Below, piece by piece: positions 43,488 through 59,329 of a DNA stretch of 64,000 bases. A program made the position numbers and the translations under genes. The first letter of the stretch is position 1. Every line of letters starts with the position of its first letter. Location of the stretch: the NCBI GenBank assembly GCA_019359115.1, contig JAHHHW010000011.1:1-64000 (forward strand). The letters are read 5' to 3'. The stretch is from Pelatocladus maniniholoensis HA4357-MV3 (lineage in GTDB: Bacteria > Cyanobacteriota > Cyanobacteriia > Cyanobacteriales > Nostocaceae). Below the pieces are notes generated by a model. That model had not been told where the DNA came from. It saw nothing but the letters and a program-made list of their open reading frames with translations, and did no database searches.

Positions 43488-44267
43488 ATGAAAAAAAACT
43501 TTAACAATAGTGATGTTTCACCAAGCTCATCTTTTGCTCTACAAGATTTTCCAGTGCTGCAATCTGCAAAATATATCCTCAAGCTTGCATCCACTGAAGC
43601 TGAATTAGAATCGATTTTACGGCTACGTTTTGAAGTATTTAATATTGAGCAAGGGCTAGGATTAGCTACTTCTAATGTTAGTCAAATGGATCGAGACAAG
43701 TTTGATGCAGTTTTCCATCACTTCATGCTCATCTCTAAAGAAACAAAAAAAACAATCGGAACTTATCGATTGCAAACCTACACAATGGCTTCTGAAGCTT
43801 TCGGATTTTATGCCGCTAAAGAATATAATCTCAATGACATTCCTGATTTGATCATCAAAGCATCTGTGGAAATTGGGCGTGTATGCATAGCAAGAGAACA
43901 TCGCAATCTTCAAGCACTGTTATTACTTTATCAAGGGCTACTCAATTATCTGAATTTGAGTGGTAATCAATATTGTTTTGGATGTACTTTATTACCAACA
44001 CTATGTCCTGTGCAAGCTGCTTGTACTTATAATTATTTTCAGCAGAATAACTTAATGCATTCAAGTATTTTAGTTTATCCCAATGCAGAATATCTTCTCG
44101 AACTTCCTCAGCAATATCCAGATTCATCTGATGTTGAAATTCCGAATATTTTGCAGGTATATTTTAATATGGGGGCAAAAATCTGTAGTCTCCCAGCAGT
44201 TTATCGACAGTTTAAAGTAATTGATTTTTTAACTATATTAGACAGTGCAAATTTTGCTAAATTGTAG
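43488..44267 (+). CDS. GNAT-fold acyltransferase of the OlsB/hemolysin-like group
   Basis: 259 residues. The pattern YILKLASTEAELESILRLRFEVFNIEQG, FDAVFHHFMLISKETKKTIGTYRL, ASEAFGFYAAKEYNL and ASVEIGRVCIAREHRN fits the acetyltransferase subgroup that includes ornithine lipid synthase OlsB and autoinducer-synthase-like proteins (Acetyltransf_5). It uses an acyl-carrier protein or acyl-CoA donor; the product may be an aminolipid, but this is not shown by the sequence. Length is usual, no membrane segment. A GGAATAGAG ribosome binding site precedes the ATG. It is a single gene after a hairpin repeat. Confidence 0.8.
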   Translation: MKKNFNNSDVSPSSSFALQDFPVLQSAKYILKLASTEAELESILRLRFEVFNIEQGLGLATSNVSQMDRDKFDAVFHHFMLISKETKKTIGTYRLQTYTMASEAFGFYAAKEYNLNDIPDLIIKASVEIGRVCIAREHRNLQALLLLYQGLLNYLNLSGNQYCFGCTLLPTLCPVQAACTYNYFQQNNLMHSSILVYPNAEYLLELPQQYPDSSDVEIPNILQVYFNMGAKICSLPAVYRQFKVIDFLTILDSANFAKL

Positions 44268-44334
44268 AAACGCCAGGACATAATGTATTTTCTGTAATTA
44301 GAAGTGCGATCGCCTGTAGTGTCATTTGTGTAGT

Positions 44335-44440
44335 GAGCATCCTAAATGTTTAAAATCCCTTGGAAATCTGGAGCTAGACAAACTAAGTCCGCCTACACAG
44401 ACTTCCAGTCTGCGGGTATTTTTCAAAAATTCGGATGCTC
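44335..44440. repeat. 106-bp element with GAGCATCC ends
   Basis: GAGCATCC at 44335-44342 and GGATGCTC at 44433-44440 are exact inverted ends. Inside is a small stem CAGACTTCCAGTCTG (44398-44412). The same end word with T-rich continuation occurs at 35212. It lies in the gcvT leader. Confidence 0.55.
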
Positions 44441-44516
44441 CCTTTGTATATTTGTAGTTCACACAATACAGGCGATCCGCAACCCCGTACTCGAATCAAT
44501 CTCGTAGGATATATAA

Positions 44517-44552
44517 ATGTTGACCTACGACAACAAAATTACCCGTGGCTAA
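44517..44552 (+). other. Possible 11-codon leader frame overlapping the gcvT start
   Basis: ATG at 44517 opens a frame reading [11 protein letters not shown] and stopping at TAA 44550-44552, just past the gcvT GTG (44545-44547) in another frame. TAGGAT lies 8 bases before the ATG. Translation coupling is possible but unproven. Confidence 0.3.
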
Positions 44553-45681
44553 ACCAGAAGAAAACATTGTTTCCTTATCTCGAACCCCTCTATATATCCT
44601 CGCCCAAGAATTAAAAGCACGACTCACCAGCTTTGGCGGTTGGGAAATGCCAGTACAATTTAGTGGCATTACTACAGAACATCATGCTGTTAGAAATGCA
44701 GCAGGAATGTTTGATATTTCCCACATGGGTAAATTTACTTTACAAGGGAAATATCTGATTTCTCAACTGCAAACATTAGTACCTTCAGACCTCAGTCGGT
44801 TACAACCAGGTCAAGCCCAATACACAGTATTGTTAAATTCCGAAGCTGGTATCATCGACGACATTATTTTTTACTACCAGGGAGAAAACTCTGCTGGCGA
44901 ACAACAGGGAGTAATCATAGTCAATGCAGCCACAACCAACAAAGACAAAACATGGTTACTTCAGCATCTTGATACTACAGACATCAAATTCCAAGACCTT
45001 TCACCAGAAAAAGTATTAATCGCCGTTCAAGGACCAAAAGCAGTAGCATATCTTCAACCCTTGGTACAAGCAGACTTAACTTCTGTCAAAGCTTTCGGTC
45101 ATCTGGAAACAAAACTACTAGGTAAACCAGCTTTCCTTGCCCGCACAGGCTACACTGGAGAAGATGGATTTGAAGTCATGCTCGACCCAGAAGCGGGTAT
45201 AGAATTATGGCAGAGTTTGCTTCAGGCTGGTGTCATTCCCTGTGGACTTGGTGCAAGGGATACCCTGCGACTAGAAGCAGCAATGGCACTTTACGGGCAA
45301 GACATTGATGATACCACCACACCCTTAGAAGCAGGTTTAGGTTGGTTGGTACATCTTGATACCAAAGGAGATTTTATCGGGCGTCCGATTTTGGAACGAC
45401 AAAAAGCTGCGGGAGTACAGCGTCGATTAGTAGGTTTACAAATGCAAGGACGCAATATTGCCCGTCATGGCTACCAAGTATTATCAGCAGGAATAGTTAT
45501 AGGAGAGGTGACAAGTGGTACACTATCACCTACACTTACTTATCCTATTGCCCTAGCTTATGTTCCTACCCAGCTAGCAACTGTTGGTCAGCAGCTAGAT
45601 ATAGAAATTCGCGGTAAAACATACCCAGCCCTAGTGGTTAAGAAACCTTTTTACCGTTCTCCAAATCGGATTACAAACTAG
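44545..45681 (+). CDS. gcvT: Glycine cleavage system T protein (aminomethyltransferase)
   Basis: 378 residues from a GTG start. It takes the aminomethyl group from lipoyl-GcvH, releases ammonia and passes the methylene to tetrahydrofolate. Signatures: [78 protein letters not shown] and the C-terminal barrel [21 protein letters not shown]. Length is normal. First of three gcv genes on the strand. No glycine riboswitch is recognisable upstream. In cyanobacteria the system works in photorespiration. Confidence 0.96.
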
Positions 45682-45828
45682 CCATTTGTCATTTGTCATT
45701 GGTAAGGTTTTCAATCATGTTCTATTTGTTCTCACCGACTGACTTAATTGCTAATTGCTAATAATGTCTTTACCATTAGCCATTAGTTGTTATCCTGTTC
45801 ATTTTTTTTACGTGGAAAGGGAAGTGAT

Positions 45829-46215
45829 ATGTCTTTGGAATATCCACAAGATTTAAGATACTTGGATACTCATGAATATGTACGCTTAGAAGGTGAAATC
45901 GCCACAATTGGTATCACCAGCTTTGCTGTAAATCAACTGGGTGATGTTGTATTTTTGGAATTACCAGAGATTGGTGATGCTGTCACCAAAGGAGACAAAA
46001 TTGGTACAATTGAATCAGTAAAAGCCGTTGAAGACTTAAACTCACCAGTAACTGGTACTGTTATAGAACGTAACGAGGAAATGATCGAATCTCCCGAACA
46101 TATAGCAGAAGATCCCTACGGTGAGGGATGGTTTATTAAAGTAAGAGTCAATGACCCTGGTGAAATTGATGATGCACTCACAGCGCAGGAATATAGTGCT
46201 GAGGTGGAGGGGTAG
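45829..46215 (+). CDS. gcvH: Glycine cleavage system H protein
   Basis: 128 residues from the ATG at 45829, with GGGAAG before it; a TTG at 45787 would add an unconserved leader. It carries the lipoyl arm that shuttles intermediates among the P, T and L proteins. Lipoyl lysine K65 lies in [18 protein letters not shown]. Other marks: [39 protein letters not shown] and [11 protein letters not shown]-like [12 protein letters not shown]. Length is usual. It lies between gcvT and gcvP. Confidence 0.97.
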
Positions 46216-46338
46216 AGTTTTGCAGAGGCGGGGATGCGGGATGCGGTAACACCAAGAGGCGTTAAACTCATGCCACTTGTCTCGGCAGTAGGATTTCGCG
46301 GCCATTGGGCAGTAAACAACTATTTGTATTTCGCTGAT

Positions 46339-46569
46339 GAGTCTTTGATACTCGACGACGAGTCTTTGATACTCGAAGACGAGTCTTTGATACTCGACGA
46401 CAAGTCTTTGATACTCGAAGACGGGTCTTTGATACTCGACGACAAGTCTTTGATACTCGAAGACGGGTCTTTGATACTCGACGACGAGTCTTTGATACTC
46501 GACGACGAGTCTTTGATACTCGACGACGGGTCTTTGATACTCGACGACGGGTCTTTGATACTCGACAAC
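46339..46569. repeat. 21-bp minisatellite between gcvH and gcvP (11 units)
   Basis: Exactly eleven 21-bp units (231 bp) of (G/A)(A/G)GTCTTTGATACTCGA followed by (C/A)GAC or similar. Variation is confined to a few positions. No spacers. The unit contains GAGT...ACTC, so each unit can form a small stem. Frames through it are artefacts. Confidence 0.95.
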
Positions 46570-46788
46570 AGGGGAGAGTAAAAGACAAGAGAGAATCTAT
46601 CAAAAATATTCTCCCTTGTTCCCCTTGTCTCCCTTGTCCCCTTTGTCCCTCTTGTCCCCCTTCCCTTCCTTGTCCCAATACGGTTCAAAGAAATTTGATG
46701 AAATTTAGGTGAATTGATACTTTAGATCCAAACACCTTAAATATACTTATTGCAAAATATTAAATAGTAACGTCTGGAGAAGCTCTTT
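46570..46788. repeat. Pyrimidine-rich short repeat before gcvP
   Basis: From about 46610 to 46677 one strand is nearly pure pyrimidine plus G, built of CCCTTGTCCC-like 9-10-bp words. The remaining 110 bp leads to gcvP. Confidence 0.6.
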
Positions 46789-49728
46789 GTGGTAGTATCT
46801 GCTCCTCGTCCCCAGTCAGGTAATCAACCAATTCTGGGCGAAAGCACTGAAAAATCAAGTGATTTTAAGCAAAGACATATTGGCCCTAACGCCGATGACA
46901 TGCAGCAAATGCTGGATCTAGTAGGGGTGTCTTCCGTAGATGCCTTGATTAATAAAACAGTACCGCAGTCCATTCGGCTATCTCGTGCTTTAAATTTGCC
47001 AGAAGCCCTAAGTGAGTATACAGCACTGGCAAAGTTAAAAGATATTGGTTTAAAAAACCAAATTTTCCGCTCATTTATTGGTATGGGATATTACGACACT
47101 ATCACCCCGGCGGTGATCCAGCGTAATATCCTGGAAAACCCTGGTTGGTACACTGCCTATACTCCTTATCAGCCAGAAATTGCCCAAGGGCGATTAGAAG
47201 CGCTGTTGAATTTCCAAACCATGATTATTGATCTCACAGGTTTGGAAATTGCTAATGCTTCACTATTAGATGAAGCAACAGCCGCAGCCGAAGCTATGAG
47301 TATGAGCTATGGTATTTGCAAAAATAAAGCAAATGCCTTTTTTGTCTCTCAAGATTGTCATCCCCAAACTATTGATGTGTTGCAAACACGGGCTAGACCA
47401 TTGGGAATCGAGATTATAATTGGCGATCATCAATCTTTTGATTTCTCAGAATCGATTTTTGGGGCAGTTCTGCAATATCCTGCTAGCGATGGCACTGTTT
47501 ACAACTACCGCGCTTTTGTAGAAAAAGCCCATGCTGTGGGAGCATTGGTAACGGTAGCAGCAGATCCGTTAAGCCTTACACTATTGACACCTCCGGGTGA
47601 ATTTGGTGCTGATATCGCAGTTGGTAGTACTCAGCGCTTCGGTATTCCTTTGGGTTACGGTGGTCCCCATGCGGCATACTTTGCTACCAAAGAAGAGTAC
47701 AAGCGGCAAGTACCAGGGCGGATTGTCGGCGTCTCCAAAGACGTCCAAGGTAAGCCAGCATTACGTTTGACTTTGCAAACCCGCGAACAACACATCCGTA
47801 GAGAAAAAGCTACTAGTAATATTTGTACAGCACAGGTATTGTTAGCGGTGATGGCCAGTATGTATGCTGTCTATCACGGCCCCGCAGGACTGAAAAAAAT
47901 AGCCGAGAATATCCACACCTTGACTGTCACCTTGGCTGCTGGATTAAAACACCTGGGCTACAAAATTAGTTCTGAAAGTTTCTTTGATACTATCCGCGTA
48001 GAACTAGGAACACGCAGTTTCAAAGAAATTCTCGCTGCTTGCGAAGCTAAGAAAATTAACCTGCGGATTTTTGATGAAACTGCTGTAGGTATTTCGCTCG
48101 ACGAAACCACCACAGTTGAAGATGTTCACAATCTACTAGAAATTTTCGCCTTTGGGAATGAGTTTACTCTCCTCACCTTAACCCCTAATCTTCCCCTTAA
48201 GCGCGAAAGCGCCTACCTCACTCACCCCATTTTCAACTCCTATCACTCAGAAACCGAGTTGTTGCGTTACCTGCACAAGCTGGAAACAAAGGACTTGTCG
48301 TTAACGACATCAATGATTCCTTTGGGGTCATGTACGATGAAATTAAATGCGACATCAGAGATGATTCCAGTCAGTTGGGCAGAATTTGCCAAAATTCATC
48401 CCTTTGCGCCGCAATCACAAACTCAGGGTTATCAAATTCTTTTCCAGCAGTTGGAAGAATGGTTAGCTGAGATTACTGGGTTTGCGGGAATTTCTCTGCA
48501 ACCAAATGCTGGTTCCCAAGGTGAATACACAGGGTTGCTGGTGATTCGCCAGTATCACGAAAGTCGTGGGGAAGCACACCGCAATGTTTGCTTAATTCCC
48601 ACATCTGCTCACGGAACTAACCCCGCAAGTGCAGTAATGTGCGGGATGAAAGTAGTAGCTGTGGCTTGCGATCGCCAAGGTAATATTGATGTGGATGATC
48701 TCAAGGCAAAAGCCGAAAAACACAGCCATGAACTCGCTGCTTTGATGGTGACTTATCCTTCGACTCACGGCGTGTTTGAAGAAGCAATTCAGGAAATTTG
48801 TGCTGTTGTTCATGCCCACGGTGGACAAGTGTACATGGATGGAGCGAATATGAATGCTCAGGTGGGACTTTGTCGCCCTGGAGATATTGGGGCTGATGTT
48901 TGTCACTTGAACCTGCACAAAACTTTCTGTATTCCCCACGGTGGTGGTGGCCCTGGTATGGGGCCGATTGGCGTAGCAATCCATTTAGTAGAATTCTTGC
49001 CTGGAAACGCTGTTATTGCAATGCAAGAATACAATCCAAAATCTATAGACGCGATAGCGGCTTCTCGTAGAGTAATCCAAAATCCAAAATCGATAGGGGC
49101 GGTTTCGGCTGCACCTTGGGGTAGCGCCAGCATCTTGGTAATTTCTTGGATGTACATTGCGATGATGGGTGCAGGTGGTTTGACTGATGCTACGAAAGTG
49201 GCTATTGTTAATGCCAACTATATTGCCAAGCGTTTGGAAGCACACTATCCTATTTTGTATCAAGGCAAAAATGGGTATGTTGCCCACGAGTGTATTTTAG
49301 ATTTGCGATCGCTCAAAAAATCTAGCAACATCGAAATTGATGATATCGCTAAACGCTTGATGGACTACGGCTTCCACGCGCCTACTGTTTCTTGGCCTGT
49401 AGCAGGTACAATCATGGTGGAACCTACCGAAAGCGAATCGAAACAAGAGTTAGATCGATTCTGCGATACGATGATTAGTATTCGTCAAGAAGTTGCTGAA
49501 ATTGAAGCAGGTAAGGCGGATTTGCAAAATAATGTCCTGAAAAATGCACCGCACACCGCCGAAAGTTTAATTATCGGAGAATGGAATCATCCTTATTCTC
49601 GTGAACAGGCTGCTTACCCTGCACCTTGGACACGCGAACACAAATTCTGGCCTGCTGTTGGGCGTATTGATGCGGCTTTTGGGGACAGGAATTTTGTTTG
49701 TTCTTGTCTACCAATGGATGCGTATTAA
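46789..49728 (+). CDS. gcvP: Glycine dehydrogenase (decarboxylating), P protein, with an in-frame repeat insertion
   Basis: 979 residues from a GTG start with GGAGA upstream. It decarboxylates glycine with PLP and loads the aminomethyl group on GcvH. It is the fused homodimeric form. PLP lysine K711 is in [36 protein letters not shown] and [17 protein letters not shown] are intact. Between [10 protein letters not shown] and [11 protein letters not shown] there is extra text (residues about 747-770, [20 protein letters not shown]) encoded by a dispersed repeat. The insertion keeps the frame and sits in a loop-like place, so the enzyme may still work. Confidence 0.97.
49030..49093. repeat. Small dispersed repeat inside gcvP
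   Basis: AATCCAAAATC words (49033, 49073, 49081) bracket TAGACGCGATAGCGGCTTCT then CGTAGAGTA, a small dispersed repeat of Nostoc-type genomes that is normally found between genes. Here it is coding. Confidence 0.8.
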
Positions 49729-49745
49729 GTTCGTTAACAATCATG

Positions 49746-49801
49746 CCTCACTCTAAAAGGGTGGGGTCATAGCCACAAAGCCTGCTGAAGCAGGCTTTTA
49801 T
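49746..49801 (+). terminator. Hairpin pair after gcvP, likely terminator
   Basis: A first imperfect stem (CACTCTAAAAGGGTG), linker TCATAGCCACAA, then a perfect 11-bp stem AAAGCCTGCTGAAGCAGGCTTT (49777-49798) followed by TATGTTATT. It is also a two-stem member of the multi-hairpin repeat family (same linker TCATAGC). Confidence 0.75.
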
Positions 49802-50072
49802 GTTATTATTATTTATATCACCTCATAGTAGCCTTCATTAAGTACTATCGTTTTGAAAAAATTTTTTGAGCAAGTCTTTTTTCGGAAACTAATGTTTGCT
49901 TCGTGAAGTTAAGAACTACTACCTTTTAGCTTTTGTTAATCTCCACTGCTGAAATTAATCGGTTGAGAAATCTTAAATTCAAGCTATACACCGTTAATGG
50001 TGTCTAATTTGTGCAATCAGTTGAATTGTCAGTCAGACACTTAATTCATCAAAGTTAAAAATAAGGGATGCT
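49802..50072. other. Spacer before the GAF kinase
   Basis: 271 bp without genes. AATAAGGGATG before the ATG at 50073 gives a usable ribosome binding site. No terminal repeats. Confidence 0.4.
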
Positions 50073-52913
50073 ATGGTTGCTGATAGAGAAAAACCAGAAG
50101 AAGTAAAAGTATTTGAACAAGAAATTCTGGAAGCTGAAAATCAGATAGCACAGGCAACCTCAAAACTGTTTTTTCTGGAAGATATCCTTGACAATATTTG
50201 TCATGAAATTCAATCTGTGCTGGGCTTCGACTTTGCCACCATATCCTTGGTGATGCCAGCACACAATACCATTGAGACAGTACATGGAATTGGCATTCCC
50301 AAAAACAATTGGTTCAATCAAGCAAGACATTATATAGAAGAAGATCAAGAGTTACGAGATATTCAAGCAGATGTAGTCCAAACTCGTCAAACCGAAATTA
50401 TATCTGGATGGGACAAGCGATTTGATCGCTGGCTCTACGAAACATTTCACCATCAGCATTTCATTCGTATTTTTACACCTATTATCCTGATCAGAGATGA
50501 AACTGGAAAAGTAATTGAAGATTGGTTTGAACACTATGACTGGGAGAATAACTTTATTCCTAGACAAACAATTGGAGGAGAAAAAAATACTACGATTCAG
50601 ATGAATCAATTACCTAGATTTGCTGTACCTAAAGTTATTGGTACTATAGAAGCAGGCTACAAAAACTCTGAAATACCTATTACATATAAACAAGCAGTTA
50701 CTCTGGCTAAACTTGTTGGTCAAAAAGCACTAGATATTCGTCAAGCACGTTTACCTTATGTTTTAGAAGTTATTTCTGAGAACGCTAGGCGTATTTTGCG
50801 AGCTGATTGGTCTACACTGCATTTTCTCTGGAATCGAGATCAAAACCGCTACGTATACGATATCTGTATCGGCTGTATAAATAATCTGTTCACACAGAAC
50901 AATCCACCTCGTAAAGAAGGGTTAGGCTGGCAAGCAATCCGTGACAGACAACCTCAATTTATTAGCAGTTCCGAGCCAGAATTCTTTAATCCGACAGCAT
51001 ATCGTGAAGGAACCAGAGCATATGCCGCTTTTCCATTGCTGTTCGATGGCAAACAGGGATTGATACATCGCGAAATCTCCACTGACACACATGAAAATAA
51101 TAGTGGTCGAAAAAAATCTGACTCCAGTTATGTCGGAGTCCTTTATATTCATTTCCTGCGCGAGCATCAATTAGATGATGATGAGTTGCGTTGGGGAGAA
51201 CTCTTTGCTAACCGGGCTGTTGATGCTATATGGCACGCTATTATATATCAACAGATGCGCGATAAAGCACGTCAATTAAGTACTCTCCACTCAGTTACTC
51301 AATCCCTCAATCAGATACCAGAAAACAGTGATTTACTAAAGCACATTGCTTGGAATACTTTAAACGTGCTGGCAGCAGATGTTGTCACTATCTACGCATA
51401 TATTCAGGCTGAAAAGCAATTTTTGACACCACCTAGTATTGCCGGACGCCTCAGAGCAGAACAGGAAATGAGTAAAGAGATTAGTCAACAAGATGTACCA
51501 TTTCTATTGATCGCGCATGGAAAGAATGTCTATGCTCCACAGTTTGAAAAATCTATCTTTAAAAATTCACCTTTTACCAAGCGGGAAAATATCAAGTCTG
51601 TGGCTGGTGTCTTGCTGAAGGTAGACACAGATATTGTGGGGGTCATGTTTATTAGCTATCGCAGATCTCACAGTTTCTCTAAAGAGGAAATACAAATTAT
51701 TGATTCCTTAGCTGCTTCAGCTGCGATCGCGATCAAAAACCAACGATGGTTGCAAACTTTAGGTGATATTGATCGTGAAATTATAACTACTTTAGACCAA
51801 GAAGAACTCTTAAGGCTAATTGTGCAGCGAGCAGTACAAATCACAGGGGCAGATTTGGGAATTATTCGCCACTTAGATCCAATCAGCCAGAAATTAGTTG
51901 CACAGACTAGGCATCCTGCTGATGAGCCAGTTGAATTAAATTTAACATCTATAAAGATGGATGAAGGGGTGGCTGGTTGGGTCGCAAGACATCGCCAACC
52001 AGCATTAGTTGATGATGTTCGGACTGACTCACGCTATAAAGCCTATTTTGTTAATACTCTTTCAGAGTTATGTGTACCTCTTCTTGATCAAGATGGTCGT
52101 GTAGTTGGTGTACTAAATGTAGAAAGTCGTAAGACTAATGCATTCGATCAAAGAGATTTACAAAGGTTAGAAGTTTTAGCTGATCTTGCTGTTATTGCAA
52201 TTCAGAATGCGGAAAGTAAAGAAAAGCTTGCCAAAATGGAAACCATGGCTGCTGTTGGTGATTTAACCAGCCAAATTCTGCATCGCATGAATAATGATGT
52301 TGGTGCGTTTAAAGAATTCCTACAAGAAACTATTGATAGCCTCGATAGAGGTGATATTAATGATGCAAGAGATACATTGAACCGGATTCGGCTTTTAGTA
52401 GATCGAGTTCGTGACAATCTCCGAGGGATGAAAGTTTATAAGCAAGAAAGTCCCCAAGTTATCAATCTCTACCAAGTCATTCTCGAAGTTCTAAATCAAA
52501 TACAAATCCCATCTGAAGTTATCCAAACAATTGATCTAGAATCCAATTTGCATGAAGTGTTTGGTGGTAAACAGCAATTACTAGGTGTGTTTGATAATCT
52601 CATCCGAAATGCTATTGATGCTATGCCTGATGGAGGTGTACTTTCCATCAGTGGCAAAAGCGTAGAGCGAGAAAGAAAGCTCTGGATAGAATTGCAAATT
52701 TCTGATACTGGTTTAGGCATTAGTAAAGAAGACCGTGAAAAAATTTTTCAACTAGGATTTACAACCAAGAGTAATCGTGGCAGGATGGGTTTTGGATTAT
52801 GGTGGACTCAAAGTCAGATAGAAAGCTTAGACGGACATTTAACAGTAAATAGCATAGTTGGTGAGGGAACACAATTTACTGTAATATTGCCAGCATGTAA
52901 TCCGGAGGTTTAA
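50073..52913 (+). CDS. Cytoplasmic multi-GAF sensor histidine kinase
   Basis: 946 residues with no membrane segment. Four GAF-like units are visible, at about 25-230 (degenerate), 240-395, 405-560 and 570-720; the last two are clearest (DVVTIYAYIQAEKQFLTPPSIAG ... IVGVMFISYRRSHSFSKEEIQIIDSLAASAAIAIKNQRW; EGVAGWVARHRQPALVDDVRTDSRY ... VGVLNVESRKTNAFDQRDLQRLEVLADLAVIAIQNA). The dimerisation helix AAVGDLTSQILHRMNNDVGAFKEFL places the likely phospho-His at H737. HATPase: FDNLIRNAIDAMPDGG, DTGLGIS, FTTKSNRGRMGFGLWWTQSQIESLDG. It ends 47 bp before a REC-caspase gene on the same strand, its likely phosphorylation target. Confidence 0.92.
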   Translation: MVADREKPEEVKVFEQEILEAENQIAQATSKLFFLEDILDNICHEIQSVLGFDFATISLVMPAHNTIETVHGIGIPKNNWFNQARHYIEEDQELRDIQADVVQTRQTEIISGWDKRFDRWLYETFHHQHFIRIFTPIILIRDETGKVIEDWFEHYDWENNFIPRQTIGGEKNTTIQMNQLPRFAVPKVIGTIEAGYKNSEIPITYKQAVTLAKLVGQKALDIRQARLPYVLEVISENARRILRADWSTLHFLWNRDQNRYVYDICIGCINNLFTQNNPPRKEGLGWQAIRDRQPQFISSSEPEFFNPTAYREGTRAYAAFPLLFDGKQGLIHREISTDTHENNSGRKKSDSSYVGVLYIHFLREHQLDDDELRWGELFANRAVDAIWHAIIYQQMRDKARQLSTLHSVTQSLNQIPENSDLLKHIAWNTLNVLAADVVTIYAYIQAEKQFLTPPSIAGRLRAEQEMSKEISQQDVPFLLIAHGKNVYAPQFEKSIFKNSPFTKRENIKSVAGVLLKVDTDIVGVMFISYRRSHSFSKEEIQIIDSLAASAAIAIKNQRWLQTLGDIDREIITTLDQEELLRLIVQRAVQITGADLGIIRHLDPISQKLVAQTRHPADEPVELNLTSIKMDEGVAGWVARHRQPALVDDVRTDSRYKAYFVNTLSELCVPLLDQDGRVVGVLNVESRKTNAFDQRDLQRLEVLADLAVIAIQNAESKEKLAKMETMAAVGDLTSQILHRMNNDVGAFKEFLQETIDSLDRGDINDARDTLNRIRLLVDRVRDNLRGMKVYKQESPQVINLYQVILEVLNQIQIPSEVIQTIDLESNLHEVFGGKQQLLGVFDNLIRNAIDAMPDGGVLSISGKSVERERKLWIELQISDTGLGISKEDREKIFQLGFTTKSNRGRMGFGLWWTQSQIESLDGHLTVNSIVGEGTQFTVILPACNPEV

Positions 52914-52960
52914 GTTGAGATTCGGCATCAAGTACCAGAAGCAATATAAAGGAGAAGTTT

Positions 52961-54184
52961 ATGGCGGAGTACAAAATTCTTCTGGTTGAGGATGACTTAT
53001 TTTGGCAGGATCTTCTTGAACGTAAGATTCGCCTTGCTTTGCGAGGTATTGATGACCCAAAGAGTGCCATTACAATTGTCGAACTTTTCGATCAAGCTTA
53101 TAACACTATCAAAAATGATTGCTGGCATCTACTAGTTACTGACATTGGTCTGGGAGATCCATCAGTATCTATGCTCAAGAAAGGAATGCATTTAGCTGAC
53201 CTAGCTCACGAGTTAAACATACCAGTTATTGCAGTCAGTGGAACACCAGGATTAAGTAGAAAAGATGTCAGTAACTTATACGAAAAATTTGGTATCTTTA
53301 GCTTTTTTGATAAGCTTGATTTTGATCACAGTAGTTTTATCACAAAAGTTCAAGCAGTTTTACAAAAGCAAATAACAACCTCCTCGCAACATCAAAATTC
53401 AGTCCAAAAACCATCTCAAATACCAGAGGCGATCGCTACAATCCAATCTAATTATTATGCTCTGGTAATTGGCATTGCCAATTATCATCACATCCGTCCA
53501 CTCTCAAAAACAACTAATGATGCGAGTGATCTGCACGAAACGCTGATTCAAAATGGCTATAGTCAAACAAATGTCACTATTTTGCTCGATCAAGATGCTA
53601 CAAAAGCCGCGATTAGTCAGAAATTAGAACTGCTTGCTAGTCATGTTAAAGCCCATGATACCGTAATCATCTTTTTCTCTGGTCATGGGGCGCGTTTATT
53701 TGGTGGCTTTTCATCAGGCGAATATTTGTGTCCAGTGGAAGCAGAAATAAACAAAATCAAGGATACATGTATTTCTGATGCAGAATTCACCAATGCTTTG
53801 CGGGCTATTCATGCTAGTCGCTTAGTTGTTTTTCTAGATAGCTGTCACTCTGGTGGGGTTGGTGAACCCAAGGATTTGCTTTATCAATTAGAAGCTGGTT
53901 TGTCAGAAAAAACCTATAATCACCTCGTTCAGGGAGAAGGACGAGTCATCATCGCCTCATGCAAATCAGATGAAGTGTCCTGGGAACTTCCAGGAATGCG
54001 GAATGGGCTATTTACTTACTACCTGTTAGAAGGAATACGTGGTAAAGTTGCTAAGGCTGATGGAACTGTTCGGATTTTTGATTTGTTTAGTTATATATCT
54101 GAACATGTACCTAAGCACAAACCTGAGCAGAATCCTTTCTTAAAGTCGCAAGCAGAAAACTTTATTGTTGCTATCACCAAATAA
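52961..54184 (+). CDS. Response regulator fused to a caspase-like protease (REC-peptidase C14)
   Basis: 407 residues. Residues 4-135 are a receiver domain: E10/D11/D12, phosphoacceptor D61 in LLVTDIGLGD, S93 in AVSGT and K118 in FFDKLD. A Gln/Ser/Pro linker (136-160) joins a caspase p20-like domain, 163-405: NYYALVIGIANYHHIRPLSKTTNDASDLHETLIQNGY, catalytic His242 in IIFFSGHGA and catalytic Cys295 in VVFLDSCHSGG. VIIASCKSDEVSWE and GLFTYYLLEGIRG complete the fold. Both dyad residues are intact, so proteolytic activity is expected for this orthocaspase-type domain. No signal peptide. AAGGAGAAG lies 8 bases before the ATG. The preceding histidine kinase is the likely regulator. Confidence 0.93.
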   Translation: MAEYKILLVEDDLFWQDLLERKIRLALRGIDDPKSAITIVELFDQAYNTIKNDCWHLLVTDIGLGDPSVSMLKKGMHLADLAHELNIPVIAVSGTPGLSRKDVSNLYEKFGIFSFFDKLDFDHSSFITKVQAVLQKQITTSSQHQNSVQKPSQIPEAIATIQSNYYALVIGIANYHHIRPLSKTTNDASDLHETLIQNGYSQTNVTILLDQDATKAAISQKLELLASHVKAHDTVIIFFSGHGARLFGGFSSGEYLCPVEAEINKIKDTCISDAEFTNALRAIHASRLVVFLDSCHSGGVGEPKDLLYQLEAGLSEKTYNHLVQGEGRVIIASCKSDEVSWELPGMRNGLFTYYLLEGIRGKVAKADGTVRIFDLFSYISEHVPKHKPEQNPFLKSQAENFIVAITK

Positions 54185-54403
54185 TCTGACTTTAATTCTC
54201 AGTAGGGGGAGCATCTGCTAAATCAGTCAATTCAGACCTGGCGTAAGTTAAATAGTATAGCATTGATAACGGCTTAGAAGCCCATTCCACCAGAACAATT
54301 TTTGATTGGTGAAATGGGTTCTCGCCCGTTCAGTTTATTAAACCCTCATTTAGTTCAACTTCTTTATTGAGGGATATTTCTAAGAGATTGGTAAAAGATT
54401 AAT
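54185..54403. other. Convergent spacer with imperfect hairpin
   Basis: An imperfect stem, CCCATTCCACC (54281-54291) with GGTGAAATGGG (54308-54318), lies between the REC-caspase gene and infC and may end transcripts from both sides. Confidence 0.5.
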
Positions 54404-54895
54404 TTAACCAGGAATGACTTGAAGAATCAGTGAGCGCTTATCAAGCGACTGAACTTTACCCACTGAAGTGAGATCATCGACAATGCGGTCTAGTAATTTT
54501 CCAGCTTGATCACGATATTGATGTTCTCGACCTCGTAAACGAATGGCAAACTTTACTGAATCGCCTTTACTTAACCACTGAGCCGCTTGATTAATACGTA
54601 AATTGTAATCAGCCGCACCCACATTTGGACGGAATCGTACTTCCTTTACTGTGGGTCTAGCACTCTGGGTCTGACGTTTTTTCTTTTGATACTGAAGCTT
54701 ACCATAGTTGAGAATCTTCGCCACTGGAGTATCTTTGCTTTGAGAGACTACAACCAGGTCAAGATCCACACTCTGGGCTAGCTCTAGAGCTTCACGGGTG
54801 TCTATCAGACCACGATTGTTATTTTCATGGTCAATCAATAAGACTTGAGGTGACTTGATTTGGGAGTTAATAAGTTGCTTTTGGACTACGATAAT
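54404..54895 (-). CDS. infC: Translation initiation factor IF-3 with a probable AUU start
   Basis: 163 residues if started at ATT (54895-54893). Homology to IF-3 extends upstream of the first ordinary start, a TTG at 54838: the in-frame text VVQKQLINSQIKSPQVLLIDHENNNRGLID matches the IF-3 N-domain (xINxxI..P.V.LID..G). No ATG, GTG or TTG exists between the upstream stop and this region. GAGAGG lies 5 bases before the ATT. Then ALELAQSVDLDLVVVSQSKDTPVAKILNYGKLQYQKKKRQ, and the C-domain VKEVRFRPNVGAADYNLRINQAAQWLSKGDSVKFAIRLRGRE. It is somewhat short and may be a second IF-3 of the genome. Confidence 0.9.
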   Translation of the reverse strand: MIVVQKQLINSQIKSPQVLLIDHENNNRGLIDTREALELAQSVDLDLVVVSQSKDTPVAKILNYGKLQYQKKKRQTQSARPTVKEVRFRPNVGAADYNLRINQAAQWLSKGDSVKFAIRLRGREHQYRDQAGKLLDRIVDDLTSVGKVQSLDKRSLILQVIPG

Positions 54896-55149
54896 GATTT
54901 CCTCTCAATTTTTCAAGAGTTTAATTTTACTAGTAATACTAAGGTAACACAACGTTAAGTGTGAGCAAGCTAGTGTATCACCAAAAATTGGGTTAGCTAG
55001 TAGTCTGTCAATTTTCAGTTTACGGGAAAAGGAAAAAGTAAAATCCTCAACAGTGAAAAACTGTCCGTCACAATAAACTTGAGAGTACATGATTCAGCAG
55101 CTTGATGAATACGTTAAGCTGACGACAGCAGCTTTAATCAAAAAAAACA
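54896..55149. other. Divergent spacer between infC and a HAD gene
   Basis: 254 bp that must contain the infC promoter and leader. No clear palindromes. Confidence 0.4.
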
Positions 55150-55944
55150 ATGGCAAATATTCCCTCAATTCTCGCCTTGGACTTTGATGGTGTAATTTGC
55201 GACGGACTAATTGAATATTTTGAGGTAGCATGGCGTACTTATTGCCAAGTTTGGTTCCCCGCTAACGAAACACCACCAGATGATTTGGCTTCTCAATTTT
55301 ATCGACTCAGACCCGTAATTGAAACAGGTTGGGAAATGCCTGTTTTAGTCAAAGCTTTGTTAGAGGGAATTGCAGAAGTAGAAATTCTCCAAAATTGGCA
55401 TAATATTAACCAGAAAATTGTACTTCAAGACAATCTCAATGCTAAACAAATCAGTACCACATTAGATAAATTACGCGATGAATGGATTGCTAATGATTTA
55501 GAAAGTTGGTTGAGTTTGCATCAATTTTATCCAGGTGTAATTGACAAACTTCAATCGACAATTGCCAGCACAAGCAAATTATATATTATTTCTACAAAAG
55601 AAGGACGTTTTGTCCAGCAATTATTCCAGCAAGAAGGAGTAAATTTAGGTTCAGAAAAGATTTTCGGTAAAGAAGTGAAACGTCCCAAATATGAAATTTT
55701 ACGAGAATTAATTCAATTGCACAAAGTCCCACAAGAAACAGTCTGGTTTGTGGAAGATCGATTAAAAACATTACAGTTAGTAGACCAGCAAACAGACCTG
55801 AAAGATGTAAAACTCTTCCTAGCAGACTGGGGTTACAATACTCCTTTAGAAAAAACTACAGCCCAAAATGATCCACGCATTCAACTATTATCACTTTCTC
55901 AATTTGGGCAAGATTTTTCGCAATGGTTAGTTGTTAGTGGATAG
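55150..55944 (+). CDS. HAD-superfamily hydrolase
   Basis: 264 residues. Motif I is ILALDFDGVICDG (nucleophile Asp and acid/base Asp), motif II lies in LYIISTKEGRF (Ser/Thr), and motif III/IV in KRPKYEILRELIQLHKVPQETVWFVEDRLKTLQLV (Lys, then acidic metal ligands). A helical cap occupies about 25-125. It is probably a phosphatase of a small metabolite; the substrate is unknown. The last residues (QWLVVSG) and stop are encoded by a 20-bp sequence that is repeated exactly at 56099, on the other side of a palindromic element. Confidence 0.88.
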   Translation: MANIPSILALDFDGVICDGLIEYFEVAWRTYCQVWFPANETPPDDLASQFYRLRPVIETGWEMPVLVKALLEGIAEVEILQNWHNINQKIVLQDNLNAKQISTTLDKLRDEWIANDLESWLSLHQFYPGVIDKLQSTIASTSKLYIISTKEGRFVQQLFQQEGVNLGSEKIFGKEVKRPKYEILRELIQLHKVPQETVWFVEDRLKTLQLVDQQTDLKDVKLFLADWGYNTPLEKTTAQNDPRIQLLSLSQFGQDFSQWLVVSG

Positions 55945-56098
55945 CAGGGTGGTTTCATACGAAAAAAGAAAAATATGGAAGTCTGTATTTCTCGTTTTGA
56001 AGCATAGATTTTTACCCCTCTCCAAACCTCTCCCCTTATTAAGGGGAGAGGCTTTAAAAGAAGATTTTAATTTTCTCTGCTTGTATGAAACCACCCTG
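55945..56098. mobile_element. 154-bp MITE-like element with 16-bp inverted ends and 20-bp flanking direct repeats
   Basis: The ends CAGGGTGGTTTCATAC (55945-55960) and GTATGAAACCACCCTG (56083-56098) are perfect inverted repeats. The interior has a CTCCCCTTATTAAGGGGAG hairpin. The flanking sequence GGTTAGTTGTTAGTGGATAG occurs exactly at 55925-55944 and 56099-56118, as if duplicated on insertion. No coding capacity. Confidence 0.8.
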
Positions 56099-56204
56099 GG
56101 TTAGTTGTTAGTGGATAGGGGTGTAAAATCTGGATTTGTTGCAAACCGAGGTTTTGCCCTTAACGTACAAAATACCCAGAGAACGCAGCAGAAGTACAAA
56201 TAAA

Positions 56205-57365
56205 TTAAGATAATTCCTGTTGTAATCGCTTGTGAAAGGCTTCAATTCCAAAATTCGCGATCGCCATTTCTCGCAACCACTCACCGTTACAACGTTGATC
56301 TTCGCCTTTGAGGATTTCAATACAAGCCGCAGCTACAGCATTTGGATCGCGGTGTGGGACTCGCCATCCAAGTTTACCATCTTGTAGTGGCTCGGCGGAA
56401 CCGTCGGCATCACCAGATAGTACGGGTACACCACAAGCCATTGCTTCTAAATAGACAATCCCAAACCCTTCCTGAGAAGGCATAATGTAAGCATCAGCTA
56501 GGCGGTAGTGTTCCACTAGTTCTTCTGTAGGGACAAATCCAGCAAACACAACGCGATCGCTAACTCCCAAATCTTGTGCTAACTTGGCAAGACGAGGTTG
56601 ATCATCACCACGACCGATCACTAAATATTTCACTTCTGGGAAAACTTGAGCTATTTGTGGTAAGGCTTGAATTGTGATATCTACGCCTTTGTAAATATCA
56701 CCAGACCACAACCGGGCTACAGTCATTAATACTTTAGCTTTTTGTAAACTATAGCGTTCGATGAAATTAGCTGGTTTTTCTCCAGGAGTCAGGCGATCGC
56801 TATCCACAGCACAAGGTAAAATTTTGACGCGATCGCGATTAAGATGATTGGCTATACAGGCAACCTCACGAGTGTAGCGGCTAATTGTCCAAACTTGCGC
56901 TGCTTTTTGCAAACTGGATTGCATGAACTTTGGTAATGGTTCCCAAACCTCTTTACCATAGGTGATCACAGTATAAGGAATTCCCAAAAATTGGCATAAC
57001 ATCCCTACCAAAGGCGCTAGCTTGATATGACCACAAAAAACACGCTGGGGTCGTTGTTGGATCAAATGATTGAGTAATGCGACCGCCATTTTCACTCGTC
57101 CAAGTTGAGGAGACGAAGTTTTAAAATAATGAAATTGGCAGCGTTCAGATGTAAAAGGATTGGTGCAATCAGGGGCATCACGTAATATAAATATATCTGC
57201 ATGTATTGGTTTAGCTAATTGCAAATAGGCTTGAAAAATATCTTTGACATAAGATTGAATTCCACCTTCATAGGAAAAAATTTCCAAAAAGACGAATACA
57301 TGGTTAACTGGTGTATTGATTGATTGGTTTAAATCTAAGTTTTCTTGGATTGGTGAAGTTAGCAT
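56205..57365 (-). CDS. Glycosyltransferase, family 4 type
   Basis: 386 residues, GT-B fold. The N-terminal half includes VFVFLEIFSYEGGIQSYVKDIFQAYLQL (acceptor-side glycine loop) and VFCGHIKLAPLVGMLCQFLGIPYTVITYGKEVWEPLP. The C-terminal half has VLMTVARLWSGDIYKGVDITIQALPQIAQVFPEVKYLVIGRGDDQPRLAKLAQDLGVSDRVVFAGFVPTEELVEHYRLADAYIMPSQEGFGIVYLEAMACGVPVLSGDADGSAEPL, with the E-x7-E motif EGFGIVYLE that binds the nucleotide-sugar. It is cytoplasmic and probably acts in polysaccharide or glycolipid synthesis; the sugar is unknown. No other sugar genes are nearby. Confidence 0.93.
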   Translation of the reverse strand: MLTSPIQENLDLNQSINTPVNHVFVFLEIFSYEGGIQSYVKDIFQAYLQLAKPIHADIFILRDAPDCTNPFTSERCQFHYFKTSSPQLGRVKMAVALLNHLIQQRPQRVFCGHIKLAPLVGMLCQFLGIPYTVITYGKEVWEPLPKFMQSSLQKAAQVWTISRYTREVACIANHLNRDRVKILPCAVDSDRLTPGEKPANFIERYSLQKAKVLMTVARLWSGDIYKGVDITIQALPQIAQVFPEVKYLVIGRGDDQPRLAKLAQDLGVSDRVVFAGFVPTEELVEHYRLADAYIMPSQEGFGIVYLEAMACGVPVLSGDADGSAEPLQDGKLGWRVPHRDPNAVAAACIEILKGEDQRCNGEWLREMAIANFGIEAFHKRLQQELS

Positions 57366-57781
57366 TTGTAATAAGACTCGTGATTATTAAAATCTAGAAA
57401 ATATCACAATAAAAATACAATACATCCGATTAAATTTTACTTCGGATATATATAACTATGATGCTTTCAAATCCTAGCAAATTCGTTCTTGAAAACCGAA
57501 TGTTGACTTTACGGAATAGAATATTTTTTTGAGTTGGTACTTAATATTCTATTTACAGGCTTTTGACTAAACTAAGTAATTATTCTGAAAAGGGGGAGTT
57601 AATTTTTTGTCATAATTTTGGGGTTGTACCAGACGCGATTATACTCTTACGAGCGTCTACGCGTCTGTACAATTATTAGGATTATACAAATGCTAAGGCT
57701 GTGATTTCGGAAATGAGAAAATGGGGAATGGGGAAGGAGTCGCTAGGATCAAGATTAGTAACTTTGCTGGGATGAAGTTCT
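57366..57781. other. Divergent spacer with a decayed hairpin element
   Basis: At about 57606-57672 the text TTTTTTGTCATAATTTTGGG then GTTGTACCAGACGCG resembles the flank and stem of the 61428-61515 element, but the right arm (GCGTCTGTACA) is displaced by extra bases. The rest is AT-rich promoter DNA for the two divergent genes. Confidence 0.5.
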
Positions 57782-59329
57782 ATGTCTTTAACTGAGGAAA
57801 TTCTTTCGCAATTACCGGGTGATGTTTTGGGGGGGTTGCGTCGGAGCGATCGCATCTTAACATCAATTAGAGAAGGTAAAATTCCTGTACCGACGGCAGT
57901 TAAAGAAAATCAACAACAATTGGGTGCTGTTGATTGGGATGTGTTGATTTGTGGTGGCACTTTAGGAATTTTAATTGGTTGTGCTTTAGCTGTGCAAGGA
58001 TTCCGGGTGGCGTTACTCGAACGGGGGATATTGCGGGGAAGAGATCAAGAATGGAATATCTCTCGCCAAGAATTAGCAGTTTTTTTAAAATTATCTTTAT
58101 TAACAGATGCAGAATTGAAACAAGCGATCGCCACAGAATACAATCCAGCCAGAGTCGGGTTTGACAATGGTGTAGAAATTTGGGTGGAAAACGTCTTAAA
58201 TATTGGTGTAGACCCAGTGTATCTACTGGAAACATTAAAACAGCGATTTCTGGCTGTCGGCGGAAAGTTATTTGAAAACACGCCTTTTGAAGAAGCAGTG
58301 ATTCATCCAGATGGAGTCATAGTTAACAATCAATACAAAGCCAGATTGTTAATTGACGCGATGGGACATTTTTCTCCGATTAGCCAACAAGCGCGACAAG
58401 GACAAAAACCAGATGCGGTGTGCTTGGTGGTTGGGAGTTGCGCCCAAGGTTTTCCCGAAAATCACACTGGCGATTTAATCTTATCTTTGACACCGATTCA
58501 AAAACAATGCCAATATTTTTGGGAAGCTTTCCCCGCCAGAGATGGTAGAACAACTTATATGTTTACTTATATGGATGCAGATCCACGACATATAGGATTA
58601 GAAGCTTTGTTTGCAGACTATCTGCGCTTGCTGCCAAAATACCAAAATGTGGAATTGTCACAGTTAACCTTGCAAAGGGCGCTATTTGGTTTCTTTCCCT
58701 CCTATCGCCAAAGTCCCCTACATACACCCTGGAGTCGCATTCTCCCAGTTGGAGACAGCAGTGGAAATCAATCGCCTTTAAGTTTTGGTGGTTTTGGGGC
58801 GATGGTGCGTCATTTACAGCGATTAACCCACGGAATTGATGAAGCACTGCAAACGGATCAGTTATCTGCCAATGCATTAGCACTATTGCAACCATATCAA
58901 CCGAGTTTGAGTGTGACTTGGTTATTTCAAAAAGCCATGAGTGTGGGTGTCAATCAAAAAATTGCGCCGGAACAAATTAACGAATTACTATCAGCAGTAT
59001 TTCAGCAAATGCAAACATCAGGTGAGATAGTTTTAAAACCATTTTTACAAGATGTAGTGCAGTTTCCAGCCCTGACGCAAACCTTATTAAAAACAAACTT
59101 CGCCCATCCTGGAATTGTGGTAAAAATTATTCCCCATGTCGGTTTATTAGCTTTGTTAGATTGGCTGGTACATTATAGTAATTTGGCTGCATATTCTGCG
59201 TTGTTTTGGCTCAGTCAAAATTTTGCACCCTGGGAGAAATATTTACCCAACACTTCTAAATATTACTGGCATCGTTGGGTTGATGCTTGGAAGTATGGTT
59301 CTGGTGGTGATTATGAGAAAGGGGAATAG
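57782..59329 (+). CDS. cruP: FAD-dependent lycopene-cyclase paralogue (CruP-like)
   Basis: 515 residues. A Rossmann FAD site is at about 52-82 (DVLICGGTLGILIGCALAVQGFRVALLERG), directly followed by the distinctive LRGRDQEWNISRQELAVFLKLSLLTDAEL. Later marks are LLIDAMGHFSPISQQAR and RILPVGDSSGNQSPLSFGGFGAMVRHLQRL. This combination is that of CruP, a relative of the lycopene cyclase CruA that is also found in plants, where it is linked to limiting photo-oxidative stress rather than to cyclisation. It probably acts at membranes: the C-terminus is hydrophobic and aromatic. No carotenoid genes are adjacent. Confidence 0.8.
   Translation: MSLTEEILSQLPGDVLGGLRRSDRILTSIREGKIPVPTAVKENQQQLGAVDWDVLICGGTLGILIGCALAVQGFRVALLERGILRGRDQEWNISRQELAVFLKLSLLTDAELKQAIATEYNPARVGFDNGVEIWVENVLNIGVDPVYLLETLKQRFLAVGGKLFENTPFEEAVIHPDGVIVNNQYKARLLIDAMGHFSPISQQARQGQKPDAVCLVVGSCAQGFPENHTGDLILSLTPIQKQCQYFWEAFPARDGRTTYMFTYMDADPRHIGLEALFADYLRLLPKYQNVELSQLTLQRALFGFFPSYRQSPLHTPWSRILPVGDSSGNQSPLSFGGFGAMVRHLQRLTHGIDEALQTDQLSANALALLQPYQPSLSVTWLFQKAMSVGVNQKIAPEQINELLSAVFQQMQTSGEIVLKPFLQDVVQFPALTQTLLKTNFAHPGIVVKIIPHVGLLALLDWLVHYSNLAAYSALFWLSQNFAPWEKYLPNTSKYYWHRWVDAWKYGSGGDYEKGE

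Follow-up and report, generated by a model that had tools for sequence, protein, structure and literature searches.

A cytosolic histidine kinase encoded beside a receiver-caspase fusion in Pelatocladus maniniholoensis belongs to an effector-exchanging cyanobacterial family

Introduction

What would control a caspase-like protease that carries the receiver domain of a two-component system, and to what end? The question is raised by two adjacent genes at positions 50073 to 54184 of a 64,000-nucleotide stretch of Pelatocladus maniniholoensis HA4357-MV3 (contig JAHHHW010000011.1, positions 1 to 64,000; hereafter the window), which encode a cytosolic sensor histidine kinase and a receiver (REC) domain fused to a caspase fold. 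To our knowledge, activation of bacterial caspase-like proteases is understood in few cases. Here the predicted input is a phospho-receiver with an adjacent kinase, so caspase activation becomes testable on two purified proteins. The pair belongs to a cyanobacterial family that is modular and patchy in its distribution. Its constant unit is kinase plus receiver, because the caspase can be replaced by other effectors, with at least five types in all. On balance, the sequence comparisons lead us to favour a modular two-component effector switch, in which phosphorylation of D61 would control the caspase, with abortive infection or programmed death as the outcome.

Results

The two open reading frames (ORFs) share a strand and are spaced 47 bp apart. 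Their parts are as follows:

50073-52913, plus strand: cytosolic sensor histidine kinase, 946 aa, with four GAF stretches and HATPase_c at residues 834-941
52281-52283, plus strand: codon of H737, candidate phospho-acceptor in an HRMNN box
52961-54184, plus strand: REC-caspase fusion, 407 aa, assigned from Pfam, residues and an AlphaFold2 model
52961-53380, plus strand: receiver domain, residues 1-140, assigned from residues plus the model, with E10/D11, D61 (53141-53143), S93 (53237-53239) and K118 (53312-53314)
53456-54148, plus strand: caspase-fold domain, residues 166-396, with H242 (53684-53686) and C295 (53843-53845)

The first protein has the hallmarks of a histidine kinase: HATPase_c (67.5 bits against a Pfam cut-off of 26.4), an H-box His, and N, G1 and G2 motifs. 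Pfam gave no HisKA match, and a 19-residue hydropathy scan found no transmembrane-like stretch (maximum 1.63). The candidate phospho-acceptor His is kept in all 14 kinases that precede a REC-effector gene. Light sensing by the GAF domains, suggested in the initial annotation, found no support: inspection by eye showed no clear Cys motif for bilin binding, and no dedicated chromophore test was run. The next ORF of at least 80 aa 3' of the pair lies on the opposite (minus) strand at 54404-54838, and there is no third gene in the window system. That minus-strand ORF is infC-like, as recognised by eye only. Promoter-like sites (6 against 13.9 expected) and terminator-like sites (4 against 3.1 expected) were uninformative.

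We assigned the receiver because of its characteristic residues and its match to a receiver fold in the AlphaFold2 model. E10, D11, D61, S93 and K118 are invariant in all 13 aligned REC proteins. No Pfam Response_reg match was found for the window receiver at E≤0.1; of 11 other scanned REC-effector proteins, 8 matched at E 8e-6 to 0.03, all under the Pfam cut-off, and the receivers of L096, L097 and L102 gave no match. Pfam alone would reject the receiver, a verdict overruled by the conserved residues and the modelled fold. The model, built from 13 sequences that include only two caspases, reached a predicted local distance difference test score (pLDDT) of 65.0 and a predicted template modelling score of 0.51; an earlier single-sequence run had given a pLDDT of 39.9. 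Residues 2-141 match the solved receiver 3crn_B with Z 17.5 and a root-mean-square deviation of 2.1 over 123 aligned positions. The receiver blocks have pLDDT values of 72-94, and their strands and helices succeed one another as in canonical receivers; D61 comes right after strand 3 and K118 right after strand 5.

The caspase half is identified by Peptidase_C14 (100.1 bits against a Pfam cut-off of 21.4) and matches metacaspase, MALT1 and GSU0716 structures (Foldseek, E about 2e-5) as well as metacaspase sequences. The match list from VIA-align 2 was filled by receivers and is uninformative on this half. Kinase, receiver and caspase thus stand as initially annotated, borne out by ORFs, Pfam and the model, and the residues D11, D12, D61, K118, H242 (SGHG), C295 (DSCH) and H737 all occupy the positions first given for them. 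The acidic pair was corrected: D11 is conserved, and its partner is E10 rather than D12, position 12 being variable.

Altogether the window genome has 13 caspase-family (Peptidase_C14) matches. A Peptidase_C14 protein other than that of the pair, in an open frame of 1292 aa, lies 8.6 kb past the window end (G000:C11:72601-73440). Once the pair's own sensor family is set aside, the caspase domains closest to that of the window belong to proteins with a C-terminal TIR-like part (L010-L023), recognised as TIR_2 by Pfam in L046 (the L010 protein) and by eye in the rest.

The pairing recurs well beyond this genome. Searched alone, the receiver turned up in 3 of 282 genomes of the order (E≤1e-5), at 4 places in all, each time adjoining a relative of the window kinase, and the GAF sensor part occurred in 12 of 388 order genomes (E≤1e-20). 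When species contigs of GTDB were scanned by pattern, 27 loci emerged, of which 22 are cyanobacterial; the remaining 5 are weak matches. Recurring pairs in other genera have kinases 43-56% and receivers 37-51% identical. Where the kinase phospho-His is present and the next gene readable, that gene encodes the same divergent REC fused to an effector at 14 of 15 loci; the kinase is thus conserved beside REC fusions, and the homologous genes are anything but never adjacent. The gap between the two ORFs is 14-106 bp in 13 of these 14 and 421 bp in L041. The effectors (CHAT in 9, caspase in 2, and PNP, TIR and a STAND ATPase in 1 each) are distributed as follows:

REC-caspase: the window and L101 (Mastigocoleus)
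REC-CHAT: L091, L092, L093, L096, L097, L098, L100, L103 and L118 (Planktothrix agardhii plasmid record)
REC-PNP phosphorylase: L039 (Symploca)
REC-TIR: L102 (Nostoc sp. UCD121)
REC-STAND-type ATPase: L041 (Symploca)

L092 was classed by its near identity to L091, which was scanned with Pfam, and the CHAT label of L118 is the record's annotation. The His/Cys dyad is intact in both REC-caspases, so dyad loss in most homologues did not occur. The clan CD protease His and Cys are kept in eight aligned CHAT proteins, and L118 has matching motifs. Because the CHAT proteins keep these residues, 11 of the 14 effectors look like proteases. The idea of a self-contained circuit therefore holds as far as sequence goes (adjacency, REC residues in 13 of 13, dyad), with the amendment that the caspase is merely one of at least five effectors. 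As separate observations, the pair makes up most of the L118 record (L118:1-7254), which is linear, 7.25 kb long and perhaps incomplete, and L040 (G270), one of the receiver matches in the order, is a decaying copy whose kinase and receiver genes remain adjacent although each is broken.

Kinase and receiver diverge in parallel, with correlated pairwise identities (r 0.73, Mantel p 5e-5, 11 gene pairs). The kinase tree places the window kinase as sister to that of the PNP system L039 (support 97/94). Grouping the two REC-caspase kinases together, a constraint chosen for the approximately unbiased (AU) test after the tree was seen, was rejected (p-AU 2.7e-7), and at least 8 changes of output state, with "no REC" and fused forms counted as states, are needed on this tree. 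Among 21 chosen caspase domains, a subset of all caspases in which L042 and L029 are long branches, the window and L101 domains fall into one clade (100/99) with the domain of L042, which has no REC; caspase-TIR fusions and others lie outside it. No branch of the receiver tree is strongly supported; the tree joins the window to the PNP receiver (85/89) and L101 to the STAND receiver (87/90), and a clade of window plus L101 is borderline (p-AU 0.059). The simplest account of these trees is exchange at the receiver-effector junction, the effector being swapped while kinase and receiver stay together.

A more distant version has three genes. In L043-L045, from three genomes of one genus, the gene of a GAF kinase precedes those of a standalone receiver and, next, a caspase with a receiver-like N-terminus; the L044 kinase, the only one scanned, has five GAF stretches. 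That N-terminus is a degenerate receiver by profile comparison (E 8e-6, probability 84%) and is 27-28% identical among the three, against 80-81% for the lone receiver, i.e., much faster evolving. The L043-L045 caspases are distant from the window's in the caspase tree, and caspases have therefore probably been joined to kinase-receiver pairs more than once.

If the receiver takes its signal from the kinase by phosphotransfer, phospho-His and receiver might be lost together. Among the scored loci, 14 have both, 1 has only the His (L079) and 4 have neither: the sensors of L042, L104 and L111 lack the H-box His, that of L106 lacks the whole kinase, and none has a neighbouring receiver. The count covers complete sensors with a readable neighbourhood, and so leaves aside loci at contig ends (L095, L105, L107, L108), broken or partial sensors (L040, L081/L109, L086, L087, L088/L110, L089, L090, L112) and distant matches (L113-L117). 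This co-loss pattern is compatible with a phospho-dependent link and reflects only about three independent changes; an independent-pairs test had 3 pairs, 2 of them concordant, a size at which significance is unreachable. The probable G345 locus, described below, goes the other way.

The exceptional loci have features of their own. The L042 caspase, which lacks a receiver, ends in a short C-terminal piece that is EAD-like by eye and carries no Pfam name. L106:9959-13087 (= L084), from Nostoc sp. T09, is a GAF sensor fused to a STAND-type ATPase with no kinase; the same strain also carries a kinase and REC-CHAT version (L096). The sensors of L079, L095, L104 and L111 begin with pentapeptide repeats, those of L104 and L111 have no kinase part, and an EAD8 gene lies directly upstream of the L104 sensor. 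The neighbours of the TIR version, L102, include TRADD-like_N and AAA_35.

Within its own genus the pair is confined to a genome-unique stretch:

49727-54263, no strand: stretch containing the pair, with no syntenic counterpart in three congeners; gcvP matches stop at 49726 and synteny resumes at 54264-54266

The sensor occurs in 1 of 4 congeners. In the three others no kinase match was found at E≤1e-50, and flanking DNA is about 92-95% identical. In two congeners a long distance separates the gcvP flank from the infC-like one; in the third the flanks fall on separate contigs. The pair thus lies at an insertion or rearrangement junction, because the congeners' flanks match but are separated. 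No flanking repeats of 12 or more bases were found in the two short regions searched.

Two features of the neighbouring DNA may be recorded. Within gcvP (46789-49728), window positions 49032-49093 hold an in-frame dispersed repeat of roughly 60 bases, copies of which make up most of the 83 matches reported for the three congeners; congener gcvP genes are 27 to 54 bases shorter at this site. Just 5' of the glycine cleavage genes, 43488-44267 encodes a GNAT-type Acetyltransf_5 protein with weak autoinducer synthase/FeeM similarity.

Discussion

Architecture, conservation, adjacency, effector exchange and patchy distribution are the observations from which a mechanism can be proposed. In the phosphorylation-controlled switch that we favour, the cytosolic GAF array would sense an internal cue, and the kinase would autophosphorylate at H737, as its conserved H-box and ATPase motifs suggest. 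The phosphoryl group would then pass to D61, a step to which the invariant residues, the recurring adjacency and the parallel divergence of kinase and receiver all point. Phosphorylated D61 may alter receiver contacts or oligomer state and so free or assemble the caspase domain, whose His242/Cys295 dyad would cleave cellular proteins, and the cell would be stopped or killed. Caspase, CHAT, TIR, PNP and STAND are all familiar from immune or conflict systems. Because relatives fuse the receiver to CHAT, TIR, PNP or STAND, the most likely output is abortive-infection-type defence or programmed cell death, on a Detocs-like plan in which a protease would do the killing. That this output may be phage defence, rather than general stress or cell death, is suggested by the kinds of effector and by the patchy distribution.

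Several observations weigh against this proposal. The surroundings look like housekeeping: glycine cleavage, HAD, glycosyltransferase and oxidoreductase genes (Pfam scan of annotated neighbours at 43488-59329, covering neither short ORFs nor the minus-strand ORF at 54404). No defence island was found around the window, and among 10 neighbour proteins from six related loci PADLOC matched only PD-T4-6-type models (3 of 10). L079 keeps the His and is followed by an unrelated 160-aa gene, in a genome with no receiver found at E≤0.001. In G345, a kinase fragment with Tyr for His runs off one contig, and at the end of a second contig a truncated kinase C-terminus is followed by an intact REC-STAND gene; the two are probably one locus, in which a receiver would be kept without a phospho-His. 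The L039 kinase lacks the N-box region, the L098 kinase is split by a stop, and in the L118 plasmid receiver Asn stands at position 11. Model confidence is low for the caspase half, where much of residues 296-407 falls under pLDDT 50.

Such points leave room for other explanations. The housekeeping neighbours would sit well with a stress- or metabolism-responsive proteolytic switch for acclimation, developmental or ageing death, with kinase-receiver signalling kept and no phage role. GAF sensors could read metabolites, the genome has its 13 caspase-family matches, and PMC7517822 attributes roles in homeostasis and differentiation to orthocaspases. We judge this reading rather unlikely all the same: patchiness, exchange with TIR, PNP, STAND and CHAT, a plasmid copy and absence in three congeners resemble defence or conflict genes. 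Harder to defend is a receiver that serves as a phosphorylation-independent docking or nucleotide-responsive domain, with the kinase-like protein signalling by direct contact, as its kinase-less relatives must. The sensors of L042, L104 and L111 without phospho-His, the STAND-fused L106 and, in G345, an intact REC-STAND whose kinase probably lacks the His fit that idea, and kinase-independent receivers have been proposed in conflict systems (PMC8195603, in part). Five receiver residues are nonetheless invariant, the His is present in 14 of 14 kinases adjoining REC-effectors, and sensors lacking His or kinase, except in G345, have no neighbouring receiver, all of which makes a docking role improbable. 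An ordinary kinase and an ordinary orthocaspase might also have been joined by accident at a rearrangement, given the junction and the separated flanks in congeners (far apart in two, on separate contigs in the third). Chance adjacency is scarcely credible, and we exclude it because the pairing recurs across many other genera; kinase and receiver also diverge in parallel.

Returning to the phosphorylation-controlled switch, the loci could together form an undescribed cyanobacterial modular immune family, with a GAF-kinase and divergent receiver as core and swappable caspase, CHAT, TIR, PNP or STAND executioners, in which aspartate phosphorylation directly licenses the window caspase; we advance this tentatively and lean slightly toward doubt. 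If it is true, effector exchange would make two-component signalling a plug-in trigger for killing domains met again and again in the immunity of bacteria and animals, and the phospho-licensed caspase would connect a bacterial two-component signal with caspase-type cell death.

Among known systems, the nearest in plan is Detocs, the defensive two-component system, in which the kinase DtcA, the receiver DtcB and the receiver-PNP protein DtcC are encoded in that order; a minority of Detocs may carry effectors other than PNP. In the window, too, a histidine kinase adjoins a receiver fused to an effector, and L043-L045 reproduce the three-gene order. The PNP effector of the sister L039 matches the PADLOC REC-PNP model PDC-M60C (1.6e-19), PDC-M60 being, we infer, Detocs. 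Differences are that the window has two genes, with no standalone receiver (one is present in the distant L044 operon), and that its effector is Peptidase_C14 rather than PNP, the best-known effector of the three-gene system (PMC11249213, in the part available). No PADLOC model matched the window GAF-array kinase; PDC-M60A matched nothing, controls included, and is hence uninformative. Across the phylum, PDC-M60C matched in 9 of 292 genomes (E≤1e-15), at the three places examined (L164-L166) to PNP proteins of 280-288 aa without a fused receiver, and two plasmid PNP matches (H3, H4) adjoin CBASS genes. Because a standalone REC and a PNP effector are absent and the kinase is only a possible DtcA homologue, we regard the pair as Detocs-like in plan and do not claim Detocs membership.

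With orthocaspases and metacaspases the window protein shares a Peptidase_C14 domain with intact His/Cys dyad, and it differs in its N-terminal receiver. In a survey that covered 473 orthocaspases of cyanobacteria, 35 Pfam domains were listed as accessory, WD40 and AAA_16 being the commonest; its Table 1 contains no response-regulator domain, and its Pfam-based search could miss a divergent receiver (PMC8283722, in the part available). In the partly accessible literature that we searched, no kinase-receiver-caspase system was found. The EAD/TRADD-type conflict systems (Kaur et al. 2020, 2021) overlap in their effectors (caspase, TIR, STAND, PNP), and sensor relatives here are STAND-fused (L106), beside EAD8 (L104) or near TRADD-like_N and AAA_35 (L102). 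Pfam found no vertical MoxR-vWA or iSTAND ternary conflict genes among the annotated neighbours at 43488-59329. Receivers in conflict systems occur without histidine kinases, according to the accessible parts of PMC7159879 and PMC8195603, whereas here the kinase is the receiver's constant partner.

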